From Antedon mediterranea (taxonomy: Eukaryota > Echinodermata > Crinoidea > Comatulida > Antedonidae), in the NCBI RefSeq assembly GCF_964355755.1, contig NC_092679.1, positions 15,366,932 to 15,430,931 of the forward strand: a DNA stretch of 64,000 nt, given 5' to 3'. Each line of letters begins with the position of its first letter. Positions within the stretch are counted from its first letter, which is position 1. A program made the translations under genes and the position numbers. The notes beneath the pieces were generated by a model. It was not told the DNA's origin, did no database searches, and was given only the letters and a program-made list of their open reading frames with translations. Positions 9,408 to 64,000 of this stretch are shown here, piece after piece.

Positions 9408-10229
9408 TCATTTGTATCCATAAGGTCGCCTCATGGACGAGTCCTTCATAGGTCTAATCTTTACCGCGAAATGATCATTTTTAGGTAAACAAGTTATCAT
9501 TAACACCGAGACGTGATCACTGCACCCAATGGGTGCTTTCCGTACTATATCATCATATAATTCAGGGTAATTCATAAAAATTTTGTCAAGTGTAGAATCT
9601 TTCCGTGTATGAAAATTAACTACTTGAGCTAGGCCAAGATTGTCACAAAGCTCATTAGTATTAAGGTCGTTGAAGTCACCTAGAATTATAATTGGAACTT
9701 CATGGTTGGCACTGCGTATCCTGTCGACTGTTTCAATCACATGCGATACAAGTTGTCCAGCTCCAGCCGCTGCGGGTGGATAATATATCGCACCAACATA
9801 TAAGTGTTTCAAGCGCCTGATGTTATTGGGTATTGTAATACAACACCAAAGACACTCAAAATTACACTGATCATGGTGTTCAGTGTGATTCATAGTTAGC
9901 CTGTCAACTGAGTACACAGATACTCCACCACCTTTCCTTCCAACACGCATCTTATTGAAATGTTGATATCCAGGAATAGTTGCTAAATTTTCAGTTTCGG
10001 CATTTAACCACGTCTCAGTTACAACTGCCAAGTCAATTTTGTATTTGCTAAGGGTAGCCTCAAATTCATCCACTTTGTTTCTAATTGACCTTACATTGGT
10101 TAACAAAATCTTGGGGCACGAAAAAACGTTTATGTTCATGTACTTAGTATTCTCAATAGTTATAAGATTGCTCATTACTCGGCCTCTTATTTTACTAGCT
10201 TTACTAGAGTAAGGTGTGTTAATAATCAC
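9408..10229 (-). pseudogene. LINE apurinic-type endonuclease domain
   Basis: 273 codons with the exonuclease-endonuclease-phosphatase signature: LLTNVRSIRNK, VVTETWLN, GRKGGGVSVY, YVGAIYYPP, ILGDFNDLN and GCSDHVSV in the usual order. All expected catalytic positions (N, E, D, N, D, H) can be seen. It nicks target DNA to prime reverse transcription. It is in frame from a Met but cut off from the RT by stops between 8828 and 9400. Confidence 0.8.
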
Positions 10230-33694: not shown

Positions 33695-33766
33695 GGCCCC
33701 AGTGGTCTAATGGTTAGGACATCTGCATATCAAGCAGGCGGTCCGAGTTCGAGCCTCGCTTTTTCT
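33695..33766 (+). tRNA. tRNA-like SINE head or tRNA pseudogene
   Basis: Has D-arm/A-box GTGGTCTAATGGTTAGGA and T-arm/B-box GAGTTCGAGCC in tRNA spacing, closest to Glu/Asp tRNAs. The anticodon stem TCTGC/GCAGG holds a loop with T33 and ATC. The first seven bases (GGCCCCA) do not pair with the last, so it is not a working tRNA. Pol III promoter boxes are intact. Confidence 0.6.
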
Positions 33767-34611: not shown

Positions 34612-34720
34612 GCCTACGGCCATACTGCGTTGAAACACCGGTTCTCGTCAGATCACCGAAGTTAAGCAACCCAGTTGCTTTCTGGATGGGAGACCGTCTA
34701 GAAATAGCGGCGGGTGCTGT
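34612..34720 (+). rRNA. 5S rRNA-derived sequence (not a functional gene)
   Basis: Reads like 5S rRNA from GCCTACGGCCATAC through CACCGGTTCTCGTC, GATCACCGAAGTTAAGCAAC, TGGATGGGAGACCG to GGGTGCTGT. The internal promoter parts (A box, intermediate element, C box) are recognisable. It is about 11 bases short in the middle and the 3' end does not pair with the 5' end, so it is the head of a SINE3-like element. Confidence 0.75.
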
Positions 34721-35062
34721 ATATGCCGAAGAGTGATGGTGTAATGGTAATATCGGACTAGCATGTGATAGGCATGCGTTCGAGGTTATCTGTATCCATA
34801 CTAATTGCATCCTTAGGCAAGATGCTTTACTCTCATTGCCTCGTCCTCCGGGTGAGATGTAAAGCCGTTGGTCCCGTGTACTTAACAGTGCACGTTAAAG
34901 AACTTGGTACACTATTCGAAAAAGAGTAGGGGATCGTCTCCAAGTGTGCTGATCTGGTAGGCGCTGCACTGCTGGCATACCGTGGGTCCATGGAGGGCCT
35001 AATCTGAATGTCCTCAGTTTCCAGAATTTAACATTTAGGCCTAAACAAAGTAAGTAAATAAA
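34612..35062 (+). mobile_element. SINE with 5S rRNA head, tRNA-like unit and conserved body
   Basis: About 450 bp. 34612-34720 is 5S rRNA-derived. 34735-34795 has tRNA A-box-like TGGTGTAATGG and B-box-like GCGTTCGAGGTT. The body (34815-34935) contains AAGCCGTTGGTCCCGTGT and GTGCACGTTAAAGAAC, a type of core shared by marine invertebrate SINEs. The tail ends in an (AAGT/AAAT)n run at 35048-35062. Two different Pol III heads in one SINE is unusual. Confidence 0.7.
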
Positions 35063-54942: not shown

Positions 54943-55060
54943 TTGACATGCGCATAACCCATTATTTGACTCTGCGCATGTTTATTATGCTATAGTAACC
55001 ATTTATGTCAAAAATAAAAGGGTCGAAATTGGATAATTATCGAAAATTTCCCTGTACTAC
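54943..55060. repeat. Palindromic satellite array, right part
   Basis: Last partial unit (TGACATGCGCATAACCC to TTTCCCTGTACTAC), continuing the array interrupted at 45924. Confidence 0.85.
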
Positions 55061-55074
55061 AAATAACTCAATGT

Positions 55075-55255
55075 GTGCTGTAGAATTGGACAATGAATTG
55101 AACAACTGATTGACCAATCAGAGCAGCGGAAAGCGTTCCAAAAGTTGAACAATCAGAGCACTGAAAAGTGACGTAATCAGAGCATTAGAAAAATTGTTCC
55201 AAATTTGTCATTTTGACCAATCAGAACACTGAAAAGTGACGTAATTAATATGTGA
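55075..55255. repeat. Short tandem repeat, about 60 bp unit
   Basis: Three loose units containing GACCAATCAGAGCA or AATCAGAGCACTGAAAAGTG and GTGACGTAAT. The CCAAT and TGACGTAA words look like promoter motifs, but no transcript start is implied. Confidence 0.6.
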
Positions 55256-55535
55256 CTTCAACAAGTTTTTCACAACACAAACAATGATGAGATTTTGTCC
55301 AGAGACTAACATGCGACAACATCTTTTTACAAATCCTCTAGACTTATTATTATTAATTTCAAGGCGAATTCTGGTAGTAGCTGTATTCAACTCGAACGTG
55401 TACTTGCATTAAAGGTAAGAGCGAAATTGATTTCATGCTTGAAATCGGCATTTAAAGTGTTGATAACTTGTTTGGCCTAGGCCTAACCTAGCCATACATA
55501 GCCTCATAGTCAATAGAAACTATGCCATGGCCTAG

Positions 55536-56312
55536 CAAATGTGTTTGTGTTATGCGCGATTTGAACGATTTGCGCAATTTGAAATTGCGCAAAAAAAATC
55601 CTTGCGCAATTTGAATTGAAACATGTGTTTCAAATTGCGCAAGCAACGTATTAAATTGCGCAAGTAATCTGCAAACTGCGCAAGGTTTTTCGACAGATTG
55701 TGAAATCATGCACACCCATATTTATATAGTAATTTCTAAGAATGATTCAAAATTAAAGATAAATATCGCATTTCCTTATTTTAGTAGTGCAAATATTGTT
55801 ATAAGTTAGCATACCGTCGAAGAACCGACGAAGGAAAACGAAGCGGTGGTGTTCCACCAGGCGGGCGCGGCGCGGGCGGCCGGCTATACTACTCTAGCCT
55901 AGCTAGGGTCTGGACTACTGATACTGACTAGGTTACATGGCCTAGCTTAAACTAATATTAAAAACTTAATTTTTACATTTATTTTGATTTATTTCAAGTT
56001 ACAGTGATAATATTATTTAATTGTAATAATAAATGTTATGTATTTATTATACACATGTTATCTTCGCATTTATTATGTTTTATTTTGAGTTATTTAGTTT
56101 CCAATAAATTATTATAATACCGTTGTCTGGTAGAATTTTGTTGCGCAATTTGAAAATTTACAGTTCGTTTTCAAATTGCGCAAAGGTGTCATATTGCGCA
56201 AGAACTATCTTGCGCAATTTACAAATTGTGCAGCGCAATTTAAAATTGCGCAAAGATTTTCTTGCGCAATTTCAAATTGCGCAAATCGTTCAAATCGCGC
56301 ATAACATTTGCA
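55536..56312. mobile_element. Element rich in TTGCGCAA palindromes
   Basis: Inverted ends: GTTATGCGCGATTTGAACGA on the left and the complement of this at 56285-56305. Between them, more than a dozen TTGCGCAATTT / AAATTGCGCAA words are clustered at both ends (55565-55690 and 56140-56285). The middle (55815-55885) is GC-rich. Decayed pieces of the same words occur in intron 3 of SLC17 copies A and B (about 1757-1805 and 27465-27510). Non-coding. Confidence 0.75.
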
Positions 56313-58184
56313 TGGGTGCCGACGCTAATTCTTGTTGGCGGTAGTCTGCTCTGTGTGTGGTAAAATGCATTTGCTATTATTACTTATCCCCCTAGATAGA
56401 AAGACCTCTAGGTAGGCCTAGATCTTTTTTGGTTGCCATGAATTGTAAGTCAAACCATGGGCCTGTAAGGGCTAGGCCCTAGTAAGATGCTACCTACTTA
56501 GGGCTCCCTGTTATTTATTTTCTTCAAAACTTATCTACTACTGTAGTTTAGACTAGGCCTAGGCTTAGTTAGGGTTACCGAGAGTTGACTCCATTGTTAT
56601 TGCCACGATTCAACTCCGCGTACGTTACCATGCGCGCTATGTCATTGACGCGATTATTTGTCCATTGGTAAACACATTTTTATGTAGTATTATTCTGAAA
56701 ATAATTGAACTGTAAACATAATTCTTTTGAGTATTTATTTATTTACATATCATTCCATAAGATCAACTATTTTTTATCTTCATTACATTCAACCAAACAT
56801 GTAAAAAATGTGGTTAAAATATCTTACTGTCTAGCGCGTACGACCATACGCGGTAGATTGTTTACTCAAAAACCTTCGAACGGTCCAGTGACCTAACCCT
56901 ATTCAACCTTGTTTTTGTAGTTGAGCCTCTCATGACCTGGGATTTGTTTGTCTTCCTACGCCAAGATAATATAGTTCTACATGCCATGTGCTTTTTTCTC
57001 TGAGAAATATTTATTATAAGTGCCAAAAAAACGGTTTTTTCTCGATATGAAGCCTTTATTATTCAAATCTTTTAGAGAAAAATCAGACATACCATAAAGA
57101 AGGTCTATTTATTTCATTTTTGAAATAAAATTGTGAAAATTACGTGAGGCTCAACTACAAAACCACCATTTTGTGATATGATGTCATCGTAATCCAATCA
57201 AAGCTGAGATTTCCCGCGATCGGCAGAGCAGCTCACGGTTGAATGATTTTGGATTCTGGCTATTTGATTGGTGGACGCGAATCACCCACAGCGGAATGTT
57301 TTCTCTCGCGTGTACTGCGAAGTCACATGGTCTGTCTGTACTGATCGTTACTACACAAATTTAGAGCAATGAATTTGTACGAATTCCGTTAAATAAACAA
57401 CTTTATATATTTTGTAAACATTTAATAATATATTTTATTGATATTTCCAATGTTGATATATAAAATAAATTACTATAAAACGTAATTATATGTAATTATT
57501 TTAGCGAAAAACGGTGTGGTTCATACAATTGTCGACTGAGGGCGCAATTTGTTTACAACGTTCGTGGCCAAAAACGATCATTTTCGGCGATGTTTTAGAC
57601 CCTATATTTCGAAAACTACAAGTCAGATTTTCGTAATTCTTTCTTTATTGGAATATTGAAACAAAATACTAACATATAATATTTAAATTGGTTTAAAAAT
57701 AACAATAAGATAAGATTCTCAAATAATTTGATTGCATTAAAGGAAGTGCTCAGGGATCAAAGAGTTGATACATACACTGTTTAATAAACAAAGATTATTC
57801 AATTTACTCTAATTTATGTTGTAATTCTTTATATAGTTTTTTTAATTGAAAAATTCATTCATATGTAATATTTTCTTAATTTAATTTAGATAAAATAGTT
57901 TGTTCTTAGTAGATATGTTTTAATGCTATATGTAATTCATTTTATTAATATTTTACATACATTACATTGGTCTACTATTAATTATTACTTGAGAAATTTT
58001 AACCCACAGATATTTTATTTTATTTAGATTTGATTTTCTTTTATTTACAGCCATTTACTACAACTGCACGGTGCACAGTGGCATTATACGGGTAAAATTT
58101 TCTTTTTTCACATACTTTACTTACATATATTTTTGCCTTTGATCAGTTTTTTTAGTTTTGCAGGTGTTCAATAGACAGTACAGT
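56313..58184. other. Upstream region of the DUF6729-like gene
   Basis: No coding exon supported. A possible 5' untranslated exon lies at about 58050-58091 (TTATTTACAG before it, GGGTAAAA after it). Acceptor TTTTGCAG at 58156-58163 starts the first coding exon. A CCAAT-like box (CCAATCAAAG near 57195) is present; no TATA box stands out. Confidence 0.45.
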
Positions 58185-61100
58185 ATGTTCAGACCAACTT
58201 TTCGGCGCAGTGAAGAGGGTGCCTTAATTCTTGAAGATACATCTGCTGCTGTAGTATTTAACAGCTTGAGAAAACGACCAACTGGCAAGTGTCTAACTCC
58301 TGATGATGTACGGCAAGATGCCTTGAAGGAGGTGTGCAGGCTGGGTGGAAATACCAAAGATGAATGTGATGTGTTGGGCTGCTACAAGTTTCAGCATAGT
58401 AAATACAGTGGACAAACATTCAAGTGGATGGTCGAAAATGTACTGGAATATGCAGTATGTTTTGTTATTAAAATGGCTAATGAAATTCCAAGTACAAGTT
58501 CACTTAGTATTAACAAATTCAACTTTAAGAGGTACTTGGAGTCTTTCCCAGAAGGCAAAGAAGCCATAGCAATGAAAGAAATAAAACGCTGCAGGAAATG
58601 CCCAACTAGACAGACATCGTACATACCTGTTGGTATTAAGCTACAAAAGGTTGAGGATGTCACAGATGAAACACTTTCTGGTACTGATGTCTTTGATGCT
58701 TCTTTGCAACCATCAACCTCATATGCACCAGGTAAGACTTATTCCATATTTGTGTTTTTTGTGCATTTTCTAAATTAATAATTTTAGGTTTTGCATTTTT
58801 AGTGCCTGTGTATGTTGTAGGCTTGCTGGGTTTACGTTTTTTTTTATGCATTCATTTATACTCAATCATAAAATCGTGTTGTTTAAATACATTGCTTTAT
58901 AGCATACTGTAGATAGCGAATGAAAGTAGTTTACTGCTAAATATTCTTTAATTTTCCGTCTTACAGCTCAACCAAATACATCTTATGAACCTGTTAGTAC
59001 TATGCCATCCACTACAATAACTATCAAACAGAGTGAAGGTAGTTTATTTCATGTAATTTTAATTATTTTGTTTGATTTTTAAAACTAGAAAATGAAAATT
59101 ACATAATGTAGTTTCATTAATTATACAATTTTGTTTTGGTTTTTCTTGCAGATTGTCTCATACCAGATAAATGGAAGAAGAACTTGCCCGAGATTGATCA
59201 GCAGTGGATTTCAAAAACCTTATTCAAGAAATCGAAGAAGGGGACCGCAGAGTTGGATTCAACTAAACTCAAACAACTTTGTTATTATCCACCTCAACCG
59301 GATCCGCTCAACAAAAACATACCCATGGCCAACAGTTACTTCGGTCATCGTCTTCTTCTTTGGTTGCCCCGCAAGACTTGGCAGGTCAAGCTGGTCTGCC
59401 CTCGGCCAGAATGCAAGAGCTATCCACTAACATCAGGCGGCCTCCATGGAATCGTTCGTCCGGTCCTGGATTTAGACTGCCACTACTTTCTTGCAACAGA
59501 GCAACTGAGGTGCTCTAATTGCAAACAAAGACAAATTGGCTGGAGTGAAAACATTTTAAAGCAACTTGATTTAGCACATCGCCTTCAGTTTCCTGTTGTA
59601 CTTTCGTATCACTTGGCCTGCGACAACCGGGTCCTGCAGCTTCTAAAGTACCGCGGTCTCGGTAACAGTCCATCACAGCTTCGCCAACAAGTCTTAGAAC
59701 AACACACAAGGCGGTGGAATGAGAGAGTGGCTCTCTACTTAGAAAATTGCAAGAAGTTCTGTGGTTCTCGTGATGATTATGTCATTGCTGCTTCTAAATT
59801 TGATGAGGTGTCTAAAATGATTCCTGTTCCCTCTGTCCAATGGTTTCTTACCATCTACTGCAACGAAGTAATGGGAAGAATCGACGAACTCAAGGCTTCT
59901 ATCACATCGACGTTCGGAAGAGTGTTGAAGATTGACTCGACCAAAAGGGTAAATAATTTATAAACAATACTATTTCTGCAATTTACTTTTAATTATTTGA
60001 ATTTTTTTTTTTTTTGCAGATTGTGGGGAAGCTTTCTTCCTAATAAATTTGTTTGGTTTTTTTTGCAGATTGTAAGGAAGCTAGCCGGTCGTGCATGTGG
60101 AACAGGAGCATGGGCAACAAACGTCGGAAATGAGTACGGCCAGGTGCTCATTACAGTCCTGACTGCTGCAGAAGGATGTGGCTTAAACAACATGACAAAC
60201 GGCATCATTAACCGATATGCTTTGGCAGGCGTACCTCCTCCCGAGATTCTCTACGTCGACCGTGACTGCTGCGGTCATTCAAGCATAAGGAAGATGTTCA
60301 GCGCCTGGCCTGACATGAAAATTCGTCTGGACATCTGGCACTTCATGAGGAGAATTGCTGCAGCTTGTTCAACAGAATCACATCAGTTGTATCCGATATT
60401 TCTCAAACGTCTTTCCGCTTGCATTTTTGAGTGGAGCGCTGACGATGTTGAACTTCTGAAGCTCGCCAAGCGTGAACAGCTCATTGCAAGCAAGAAGCAT
60501 TCCAACCCAACAGACGACATCATATTGAAAAACATCAGCAAGAAGGAGTATGCTTTACATTGTCGCAGGACAACACGAGGGACTCGCGAGACTGCCAACC
60601 TAATCCGAGAGCTGCTGACTTCCCTCGATGGTGAAGAAGGCCGTGACACAATGGGCGTCCCACTCTTAGACTCTGAACAGACCTGGGATATCTGGAGCTC
60701 ACAAGAGCGACACATCGCCTGCATCCAGGATCCAGAAGGCATCCCGCTCTACACAAAAACCAGTGAGATGCTTAAGGGTGGAGTTACCTTGCCAGTATAT
60801 CGTTGCGCAAGAGGCTCCACTTCTTTGGAATCGTTTCATCTTCACCTTAACAGGTTTATTCCAGGTACAGTATTACTTTTTATTTGGTATCTACCAAATC
60901 TTCAAACCGATCTACAGATTTTTGTATTATTTCATTATTATGGATGTTTTATTTTTTTCTCAGGTGAGCGTGCTAGCGACTTACATTTCCAAGCTTACCT
61001 GATGGATGGACTTGTTCGATGGAATGCAAACCGTGCACTAGCCGCTACCCAGTCTGGAGGACCCATCTCCAGTACATATAGTGGACTGCATCAGCATGCT

Positions 61101-62783
61101 CTCAACATACTGGCAGAGCAAGTGATTGGCAAAAAAGTGTACAAAAGTTTTATCATTCCAAACAAGTACACTGGAGAACTCATCGGAGTGGAGTACCTGT
61201 ACAACCAGTCGAACAAAGTGCTCGAAACTCAATTTCCTGTCAAAACAGATACCATTTATGATGAAGACTTTGATGAAGAAATTTACACTTTTGATGTTGA
61301 TGAAGGGTATGATGACAAGACTCAACCAGACTACAAACCACCTAAGCGTTGTTTTAAACCTCGAAATGCTAAAGAACCCTCACCACCCCAGCTGGAGCCC
61401 TTGCCTTCATGTGACGATAATGATGATGATGGTCAAGGAAAAGCAGCCCTTTTTGACACAGTGAGTTAAATTTGTGTCATTAGGTTCTACCTCACAAATT
61501 TTGTTTCTGTTTTGAAATACAATGCACGAGTCTGATTATATATTTTGTTTTCATATTTTACAATTTAGGAACTTGAGGATTCCACTGGACCGGACAACAT
61601 TCCAGGCTACGCCAAAGTTGAAGCCATGGCAGACTACCTTATGCAGTTTAAGGAAGACAGTGGAGTGATAAGTCAAAGTCATGCTGAACATGTCGCAAAG
61701 TTGTGGAACAACCTGGATGCTTATGACAAAACCATTAAGCGCAAAGCACGGCATCAAGATTACCTGACGAAAGGCAGGTTCAAGAAAAGTAAAACTACTT
61801 CCGTAATACCTGGTGTCGAAAGCACTCGACGGTAAGGCAGTTTCCAGCGTTTTTTACTTTGTTGCATGATGTGTCTTAAATCTAAGTTGTTTCTTTGGTT
61901 TTTTTTTTAAAAGATGCTTCTTAGGTCAGAACACCGGGCCAGCTCAGTGGCCGGACTGCAATCGATATATGGAGTGCATTATTACAAAACTATGTGAAGC
62001 GTATCCATCTACCGTATCTATCGAAGGTAGACGTTTCCAGCGCTGGCCGCTCATTACCAAAGGCTACAAGAACATTCGTCGGAAAGTGCTATCGAATGGA
62101 CACCTTATGTTGTTTGCTAAGCTTCAGTTGATGGAGATAAATCGTACGACACTCATCCAGTGGTGAGTTTTTACTTGTTATTGATTGTTATTTTACGCTA
62201 CAGTAAATACATTAAAGTTTTTAAATACTGTGTTTGATTTATTTTCAACAGGTACAACAGAACGTCAAAGAAGCAAGAGCGGCAAGTGTTGGAATCTGGC
62301 ATCTCGGCAACAATACCCAAACTTGTCTCTGATAAAACCCTACTTGAACCTTTAACCAAGCCAGCGGTGCTAAACGTTCATACAAGCGCTCCATCTTTCA
62401 CATTTGTCCTACCAAAAAACACTTCCGGCCTAGCGACTCAAGGAAACAGACCGTCGATCCCAGTTCCTGGCGAGATAGCAAAACCACCACCATCAGTCCC
62501 TGAGGCTAGCAGTACTCGTATTCCTAGAACTACCCTCTTGTACAGAAAACGAGTGGCTAAAGACATATCGGAAGGGAAACCGATCAAAATATACAAACCA
62601 AGAACGTCTGCGATTGTGTGCTCAAAGTGTAAGCAACCAAGATTAAATAAGAACCACACTCAGTACTATGGAAATTGGTATTGTGCTGCAACATCTGATG
62701 TGACTTTTAAAGAATGGAAATCGGCTATGGTTGCCATCCGTCGCCTTCGTCAAGAGAGGAAAAAAAAGCAGCAAAAAGAATGA
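58185..62783 (+). CDS. DUF6729-like zinc-ribbon / DDE transposase-type protein
   Basis: Eight exons: 58185-58731, 58967-59038, 59152-59948, 60069-60864, 60964-61460, 61569-61831, 61914-62162, 62252-62783; all GT/AG and in phase, 1250 codons. Residues 1-182: conserved region with KYSGQTFKWMVENVLEYAV. About 250-405: module resembling DUF6729, with C289-x4-C294 and C327-x2-C330, HLACDNRVLQLLKYRGLGNS. About 460-740: RNase H-like core with IDSTKR (D468), YVDRDCCG (D536), LDIWHFMRR (D560, H563) and STSLESFHLHLNRF (E726), the order of D, D, H, E boxes in Mutator/hAT-like transposases. About 820-900: acidic tail. End: CxxC-x8-H-x8-C (C1197, C1200, H1209, C1218), then a basic helix. No TIRs or duplications found, and no lesion: a domesticated or still mobile transposase-like gene. 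Biological role unknown. Confidence 0.75.
60001..60068 (+). promoter_or_regulatory. Tandemly duplicated 3' splice site before exon 4
   Basis: TTTTTTGCAG-ATTGTGGGGAAGCT (AG at 60018-60019) and TTTTTTGCAG-ATTGTAAGGAAGCT (AG at 60067-60068) are two copies of an acceptor and exon start, 49 bases apart. The second keeps the frame (IVRKLAGRA). The first reads IVGKLSS and stops at TAA. Use of the first would truncate the protein right after D468, before most of the catalytic core. Confidence 0.75.
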
Positions 62784-64000
62784 TTCCAAATGATTGTTGT
62801 AGCCATGGATAGTTTTTATACTGTTTCGTATATCTTCAATTTTTTTTTGTTCTGTGATTTTATATTCACTTTTTACAAAATATTTGTATTTTATGCAATT
62901 TGGCCATTGGGCCACCATATCTAATGGTATTCTGAATGTAAGAAGAATAATAATAAAAAAAAGTTTTTAATGCTGCCAAATCCAAAGAGCAATGATTAAT
63001 GTTGTAAATTATTTTGTAATTTTTATAAATTACATTCAGTTTTAATTATTACATTATAATTTACATTATATCATTCATTGCACTTTGTATTTGAAGGTCC
63101 CAAGCCCTTACAAAAAAAGCAGAGGGGAAACTTTTGCAGTTGAGTGTACATTAAAGGGTGAATTCTATATTCTTGTCAAGACTATTTCCTTAGTAGTGTA
63201 AATTCTCAAATATTTTATATTTATTTCAAGAGCAATTCCACTACAATTCATTTTGATGTGAATCAAATAATTCATTCCACCAATTCTAATAATATATTTT
63301 GATAATAACTCATACTATAGAGGTTATTATCCAGTAACCTTCAGTTACTCCTCTTACAGTTACACATATCCTATGATACCATGTGGCCTAGAAAAAAAGC
63401 CCCAGACAAAGTTAACGGTAATTTTGTCTAAATTTTTGAATAAGGCTAACTTATCAAACTATTTGGAATATGGTTGGCCAATCAGAAGTCAGGGTGGGTT
63501 TTTTAAATAGTTACATAGTATTTAACATATATATACAATTTTGATTGACAATTGTTCACACCCTAAAAACACAACAAAAAACGTCTCGTCATATTAAAAG
63601 AACTAACAATTAATACAACATACATATTGTAGTCGAATTTACCGTGTTTTAAAAACAAAATTCATGTACTGTAGTACAAGGATTTTTCGAAAATTGGATA
63701 AAAAAATGTCGACTTTCTCAACTTTTAACAAAAAATTTAAGTCTTATTATTCTATTATTTAATATTTTTATTCATTTAATACATCGATCATGTGATAAAC
63801 CCCTAAAATTGACAGTTTTTAGTATGCCGGTATTCAAAACAACCTCCTAGATTCTTGGGTCCCATTGGCCAATTGTCTAGTTTCCTCATTATCTAATGAC
63901 TCAGTCCAATTCAGTTTTAATGACCCCACATGGCTCTGTCCATTTCTTGTCCATTTATTTTTGCGTTCTTTACCGTTTCGAGTGATAAGATTGAGCTGTA
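62784..64000. other. 3' flank of the DUF6729-like gene
   Basis: AATAAA at 62952-62957, about 170 bases after the stop, is the candidate poly(A) signal. Beyond it no gene is seen. CATGTACTGTAGTACAAGGA at 63663 resembles the short dyad of the satellite at 44070-45924. Confidence 0.5.

Follow-up and report, generated by a model that had tools for sequence, protein, structure and literature searches.

Dada elements are DNA transposons with multi-exon DDE transposases, characterized by a DxxH motif, a CCCC motif and a CCHC motif, by duplications of 6-7 bases at the target site and by the lack of terminal inverted repeats (PMC3706591, PMC8869645). Their copies also occur head-to-tail with one duplication between them, and introns are printed for all Dada elements but those of Perkinsus. 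The superfamily is defined by its transposase; insertion into U6 small nuclear RNA genes is typical of the Dada-U6 lineage. The window analysed here, a stretch of 64,000 bases from the crinoid Antedon mediterranea (C10:15366932-15430931; the genome searched comprises 354 Mb on 18 contigs), carries at 58185-62783 an intact gene. With a probability of roughly 0.87, this gene encodes the transposase of a recently active, autonomous-looking Dada DNA transposon, probably from the Dada-U6 lineage. The family of this element, called the window family below, has mostly moved to a multicopy palindromic repeat, which resembles a miniature inverted-repeat transposable element (MITE) and has the tip TAGTAC|AGGG.

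The coding part of the gene consists of eight exons on the forward strand: 58185-58731, 58967-59038, 59152-59948, 60069-60864, 60964-61460, 61569-61831, 61914-62162 and 62252-62783, the last one including the stop codon. Joined, they form an open frame of 1250 residues from the ATG at 58185 to the TGA at 62783, with GT/AG borders at the seven introns within this coding part. DUF6729 is the single Pfam family on the protein at E-values up to 10 (residues 214-447, positions 59172-59873, E = 1.6e-77). Inside it lies the CCCC motif C289, C294, C327 and C330 (59397-59522), and a CCHC motif is located near the C-terminus (C1197, C1200, H1209 and C1218; 62619-62684). The first, second and third catalytic residues are presumed, from the sequence, to be D468 (59934-59936), D536 (60258-60260) and E726 (60828-60830); the DxxH motif, D560-I-W-H563, is found at 60330-60341. 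An alignment of exon 4 across three lineages, of which the other two are 85% and 41% identical to the window, leaves D536, D560, H563 and E726 unchanged. The initial annotation of the window had already recognized the intact eight-exon gene, a zinc-ribbon module resembling DUF6729, the residues D468, D536, H563 and E726 and a C-terminal CxxC-H-C motif, all of which are confirmed. It had also placed D468 on an exon-exon junction: the residue is close to one, but not exactly there, as exon 3 continues for four more residues, up to 472.

A printed protein for comparison of motif positions is that of Dada-U6_DR, with C389, C394, C429 and C432, then D567, D635 and E811, and finally C1359, C1362, H1372 and C1381 (PMC3706591). 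The gaps of its CCCC motif are 5/35/3, compared with 5/33/3 in the window protein, and those of its CCHC motif 3/10/9, compared with 3/9/9; the spacing between the two aspartates is 68 in both. Dada-U6 is described with 11 exons and 1402 residues, larger than the eight coding exons and 1250 residues of the window gene. DUF6729 would correspond to the N-terminal zinc module of Dada transposases, and this Pfam family would thereby gain a biological name; the word DUF6729 appears in no paper of the literature searched.

The gene is far from unique in the genome. A probe of 601 bases, reaching from the end of intron 3 into exon 4, gives 18 matches, 13 of which are 99-100% identical over at least 598 of the 601 bases. 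The others are two adjoining partial matches at 97-98% (one broken copy), two at 83-84% and a short one at 90%. With matches counted for each exon separately, and with fragments and distant lineages among them, DUF6729 gives at least 28 and the exon 4 protein at least 29. Eight of the ten copies that were spliced (L001-L010) are open, L003 having one stop and L010 a shifted frame. The remaining near-identical copies are units 2 and 3 of an array on C8 and the copy in L012, in which exons 1-2 gave no match. The proportion of synonymous differences (pS) among the eight open copies is 0 to 0.02; of their 28 pairs, two have no changes and the rest give ratios of nonsynonymous to synonymous divergence (dN/dS) from 0.12 to 2.13 on few changes, a measure which the initial annotation had proposed for orthologues. 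In viral contigs, six pattern matches were obtained, none of them a relative.

The copies have common ends, TACAAATAACCC on the left and GAGYTGTACCCT on the right. Compared by eye, the two are not inverted repeats of each other, so that an inverted-repeat search would miss them; this corrects the earlier description of the gene as lacking termini, as both ends of the window copy are present, at 55058 and 64004. With up to 3 mismatches allowed, the pattern of the right end was found 29 times, against once for its reversed control, and that of the left end 19 times, against none for the control. Without three GTGGCCT variants (L030-L032), 26 right ends are left, and without a further 7 array junctions, 19 outer ones. 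Subtracting the 7 junctions from the left ends gives 12 outer ends, or 13 with L002, which the pattern missed; L009, whose first left-end bases are lost, is left out. Two of the GTGGCCT variants, L031 and L032, have the common flank TAATTTATGTTATTAC; a related family or duplicated flanks are possible origins of this variant.

The initial annotation favoured a domesticated transposase, i.e., a gene that serves the host and no longer moves. Such a gene might keep its multi-exon frame open while two repeats interrupt the 5' part of the element, as seen in the window copy, and the unlike hexamers at the two ends of the window copy point the same way. This explanation is nevertheless highly improbable, as a low-copy gene without mobile ends would be expected, whereas the genome holds the 13 near-identical matches among 18, with shared ends and shared target sites, and the eight open copies out of ten indicate that the open frame is not special to the window. 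Copies with shared ends and flanks are exactly what the annotation had named as evidence against domestication. Its alternative, a low-copy and little studied transposon superfamily, was the right one, namely Dada as described in PMC3706591 and PMC8869645.

The window copy measures 8947 bases, from 55058 to 64004 on the forward strand. Its left end was placed by a match at 55058-55491 and its right end, at position 8004 of L001, lies four bases past the window, of which the element thus occupies 55058-64000. An initial view of this copy as having no left end was wrong: that end lies beyond two inserted repeats. The copies in L002, L004, L005, L007 and L010 are only 7505 to 7550 bases long, the window copy being longer because its 5' part contains these two repeats, both of them found genome-wide. 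They lie, with approximate boundaries, at 55549-56306 and at 56573-57707, the second one replacing ~355 bases of the other copies. The first has TTGCGCAATTT-type inverted ends and is found at 98-100% over most of its length at at least 39 other places. The second, 1.1 kb in size, matches at least 30 other places over all or nearly all of its length, at ~90-99%.

A sister of the window family, L011, shows the relation to U6. It is 85% identical to the window over exon 4; between the window and the sister family, dN is 0.080 and dS 0.60 in exon 4, and dN is 0.13 and dS 0.84 in exon 3. L011 splits a U6 gene, of which L011:756-826 matches model positions 1-71 and 9616-9660 the 3' part. The break falls at the TTGCGC of ...CCTTGCGCAGGGGCC, which is the published Dada-U6 site (TTGCGC|AGGGG). 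The remnants at this place read TTGCTC and TTGC on the two sides, so that the extent of the duplication is known only to within a few bases. The right end of L011 contains CAGAGAAGA, a printed Dada-U6 motif, and the window family has GAGAAGA in this sub-terminal position. In two cases, L035 and L037, a left end of the window family adjoins a preceding right end of the sister type, the two being separated by TTGCGC. At the Rfam cut-off, no U6 match was found in L001-L010, in L012 or in the window.

The window family thus has in common with Dada-U6, as printed, the multi-exon DDE transposase with its DxxH, CCCC and CCHC motifs, the absence of terminal inverted repeats, the six-base flanks, the GAGAAGA near the right end, the hexamer TTGCGC (printed as GCGCAA, on the other strand) and head-to-tail copies with a single hexamer between them. 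It differs in its main target, the palindromic repeat. Because no U6 match surrounds the window element or the other fetched copies of its family, it is filed as Dada, but not as Dada-U6.

Further relatives are also present. L014, in a U6 array on C9, has U6 pieces at two places, but this copy is decayed and the site is not visible at its junctions. Beside it, three full-length U6 genes lie ~1.96 kb apart (C9:21741345, 21743303 and 21745275). L013 (C3:36.53 Mb) represents a more distant Dada-like lineage, 41% identical over exon 4, and similar broken, distant Dada-like copies, L015 and L016, are located ~13.3 kb from each other (C8:15.03 and 15.04 Mb). No RNA gene was detected at the Rfam cut-off in L013, L015 or L016. 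In the window itself, a 5S rRNA-like stretch (34612-34725; 47.1 bits, Rfam cut-off 38) and a tRNA-like stretch (33701-33760; 31.2 bits, cut-off 29) are perhaps pseudogenes or parts of short repeats.

The repeat that has taken the place of U6 is abundant. Its palindrome CCCTGTACTATAGTACAGGG occurs exactly 619 times in the genome (reversed control: 0; 0.0001 expected from base composition), and the native form of its tip, TAGTACAGGGATTTTTT, 1481 times on both strands together (0.16 expected). It gives 20 matches at a loose Rfam threshold, 19 to microRNA hairpin models and one to a riboswitch-like model, all below the cut-offs, as a long hairpin would give. A hAT origin, a guess from CAGGG ends, is not used as a label here; the repeat is called palindromic and MITE-like.

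To score the target, the 84 bases beyond each outer hexamer were compared with a typed consensus of the repeat tip and with 200 shuffles each. Twelve of the 19 outer right ends have a flank well above the shuffles (window, C1:11.13, C5:1.1, C8, C4, C11, C1:21.85, C5:17.137, C5:17.560, C2:369k, C2:370k and C2:14.3), and by eye the tip starts directly after the hexamer. The right end at C1:9.378, inside the repeat, is barely above its shuffles (41 vs. 34) and is not counted as abutting the tip. Six others are not above them: C3:24.56, C1:9.384, C9:11.28, C10:23.77, C10:11.20 and C10:11.27. Among the 13 left ends, seven are above the shuffles, two abut a sister Dada and four are not above, three of which resemble, by eye, inner or cut parts of the repeat.

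Such a distribution could also arise if the link of this Dada to the palindromic repeat were not one of targeting, the copies spreading with duplicated flanks or merely gathering where palindromic repeats cluster. Indeed, the right-end pairs C2:369k/370k and C10:11.20/11.27 share flanks and look duplicated; counting each pair once leaves 11 of 17 right ends at the tip. Copies of the repeat are frequent and lie in clusters, and among 300 randomly drawn pieces of the window 4 reach a score of at least 60 against the tip; the window may hold the repeat itself. The right ends away from the tip also fit. However, the 12 matching flanks differ in their letters and are spread over C1, C2, C4, C5, C8 and C11, plus the contig of the window, C10; each of them starts, by eye, at the same place of the repeat tip, and L002 has the native hexamer at both ends. 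Spread without targeting is an unlikely explanation.

Beyond the hexamer, both U6 and the palindromic repeat read AGGG; according to PMC8869645, Dada presumably binds on this side. In the Dada literature searched, no family was found that has a repeat of this kind as main target. The nearest case is a copy of Dada-tV_OL in hAT-N16_OL, likewise a Dada inside a non-autonomous transposon (PMC8869645), but this concerns one of five full-length copies, compared with 12 of 19 outer right ends in the window family.

Even if the target has changed, the hexamer of U6 is still visible at the ends: TTGCGC is found at 12 of the 19 outer right ends and at seven of the 13 outer left ends. The pattern TTGCGCAGGGAWWTTTT, laxer than the native TAGTACAGGGATTTTTT, has only six genome occurrences, five of them right beside an end of the window family. 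The sixth, on C6, was considered as a possible excision scar and rejected, as it lies in another repeat. Six occurrences against 1481 of the native form indicate that TTGCGC is not native to the repeat target; it probably travels with the element from the U6 stage. Both outer hexamers could be assigned at seven loci. They are equal at four: TAGTAC in L002, and TTGCGC in L004, in L010 and in the array at C5:17.12 Mb. Mixed forms, TAGCGC, ATGCGC and CCGCGC, are also seen.

In Dada-tA and Dada-tY, the target hexamer is likewise replaced on one or both sides, by TTGCGC in the case of Dada-tA (PMC8869645); those elements sit in tRNA genes, whereas the window family lies mostly in a non-coding repeat. 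For Dada-tA, the mechanism of replacement was called unknown (Kojima and Jurka 2013, PMC3706591), and the hexamer was later speculated to have transposed with the element from an older target (Kojima 2022, PMC8869645). The idea of a carried hexamer is thus Kojima's; the genome count is new in the present analysis.

Head-to-tail arrays consist of four units on C8 and two on C4. At C5:17.12 Mb (C5:17121818-17137429), three units of a shorter form follow each other every 5206 bases; TTGCGC flanks this array on both sides and also stands at its two junctions. At C5:17.57 Mb, at least two units are joined at one junction. The junctions carry ATGCGC three times on C8 and TAGTAC once on C4; on C5, TTGCGC is seen at two junctions and CCGCGC at one. 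The arrays on C8 and C4 have unlike outer hexamers, and their junction hexamers equal the left outer one; C5:17.57 Mb would be a third such case, but its right end is uncertain. Units 1 and 4 on C8 differ at 2 of 7550 bases and the two units on C4 at 0 of 7538, which makes local amplification likelier than repeated independent insertions. The arrays on C8 and C4 may also stem from an error of the assembly.

The assignment to Dada is based on the introns, the lack of terminal inverted repeats, the six-base flanks, the two zinc motifs and the D-D spacing of Dada-U6_DR. Features described for the superfamily are present: the DDE and DxxH residues as read from the sequence, the CCCC and CCHC motifs, the introns, ends without inverted repeats and, at four of the seven loci with both outer ends assigned, equal hexamers in the range of the 6-7 base target site duplication. 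IS3EU, with TA..TA termini and a 6-base duplication (PMC10045372), was considered because of the duplication length and the TA start and was rejected: the left end starts with TA, but the right end is CCCT. The comparisons with IS3EU and with the DxxH group are drawn from PMC10045372 and PMC12730594.

Several observations weigh against a Dada that has been retargeted from U6. The spacing between D and E is 190 in the window protein and 176 in Dada-U6_DR. Of the sub-terminal inverted repeat of Dada-U6, the right half alone was found: the first 60 bases of the window family and of L011 contain no left partner, the best candidate having 4 mismatches in 9. The comparison with published Dada proteins is one of printed motif positions and descriptions. 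Nor does the fold lend support: a structure prediction of the kind proposed in the initial annotation, run with single-sequence AlphaFold2 on the protein of exons 3-4, reached a mean predicted local distance difference test score (pLDDT) of 36.5, too low to show an RNase H fold, and a profile of the three lineages has no match in the PDB. No Pfam family was found on exon 4 alone in these lineages. As to the target, seven of 19 right ends lie elsewhere than at the repeat tip, the hexamers are unlike at three of the seven loci (window CTGTAC/TAGCGC, C8 ATGCGC/TTGCGC and C4 TAGTAC/TTGCGC), and the native TAGTAC is duplicated at both ends in L002 only. In the window copy, CTGTAC (55052-55057, forward strand) is the tip of the palindromic repeat, and no clean duplication is present.

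The missing left sub-terminal repeat and a protein comparison by motif positions would also suit a separate superfamily that resembles Dada by its motifs, its ends and the U6 preference of the sister. This is very unlikely, as the order of the motifs, the D-D spacing, the introns, the type of ends, the tandem junctions and the exact U6 site all agree with Dada as described.

For a Dada element of this kind, the following course may be envisaged. The transposase would bind by its zinc modules, CCCC inside DUF6729 and CCHC, and, as the Dada papers suggest, would cut the target with a six-base stagger, here beside AGGG or a similar motif; the element would then be joined at the cut site next to AGGG. 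We tentatively consider, without holding it probable, that six-base tails of the donor carry the U6 hexamer to the foreign target and yield both the replaced or mixed hexamers and the head-to-tail arrays. Dada would leave the donor with six-base single-stranded tails holding the donor hexamer, and these tails would fill the six-base gap at the new site. Mismatch repair could then leave mixed hexamers such as TAGCGC. The tails of one element would be complementary to each other, but not to themselves, allowing only head-to-tail joining with one hexamer in between, and the joining of elements or circles would result in the arrays seen. The arrays could be read more plainly as the result of unequal exchange following a first duplication.

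If the tail model is true, it would explain the hexamer replacement in Dada, whose mechanism was reported as unknown, and it would describe how an element can pass from an RNA gene as target to a mobile-type repeat with the same AGGG next to the cut. Both stages of a change of target by a site-specific DNA transposon can be seen in one genome: the sister lies in U6, and the young window family occupies a hairpin repeat and retains the U6 hexamer. How Dada-like elements switch target, and how their hexamers get replaced, is made testable by these copies.

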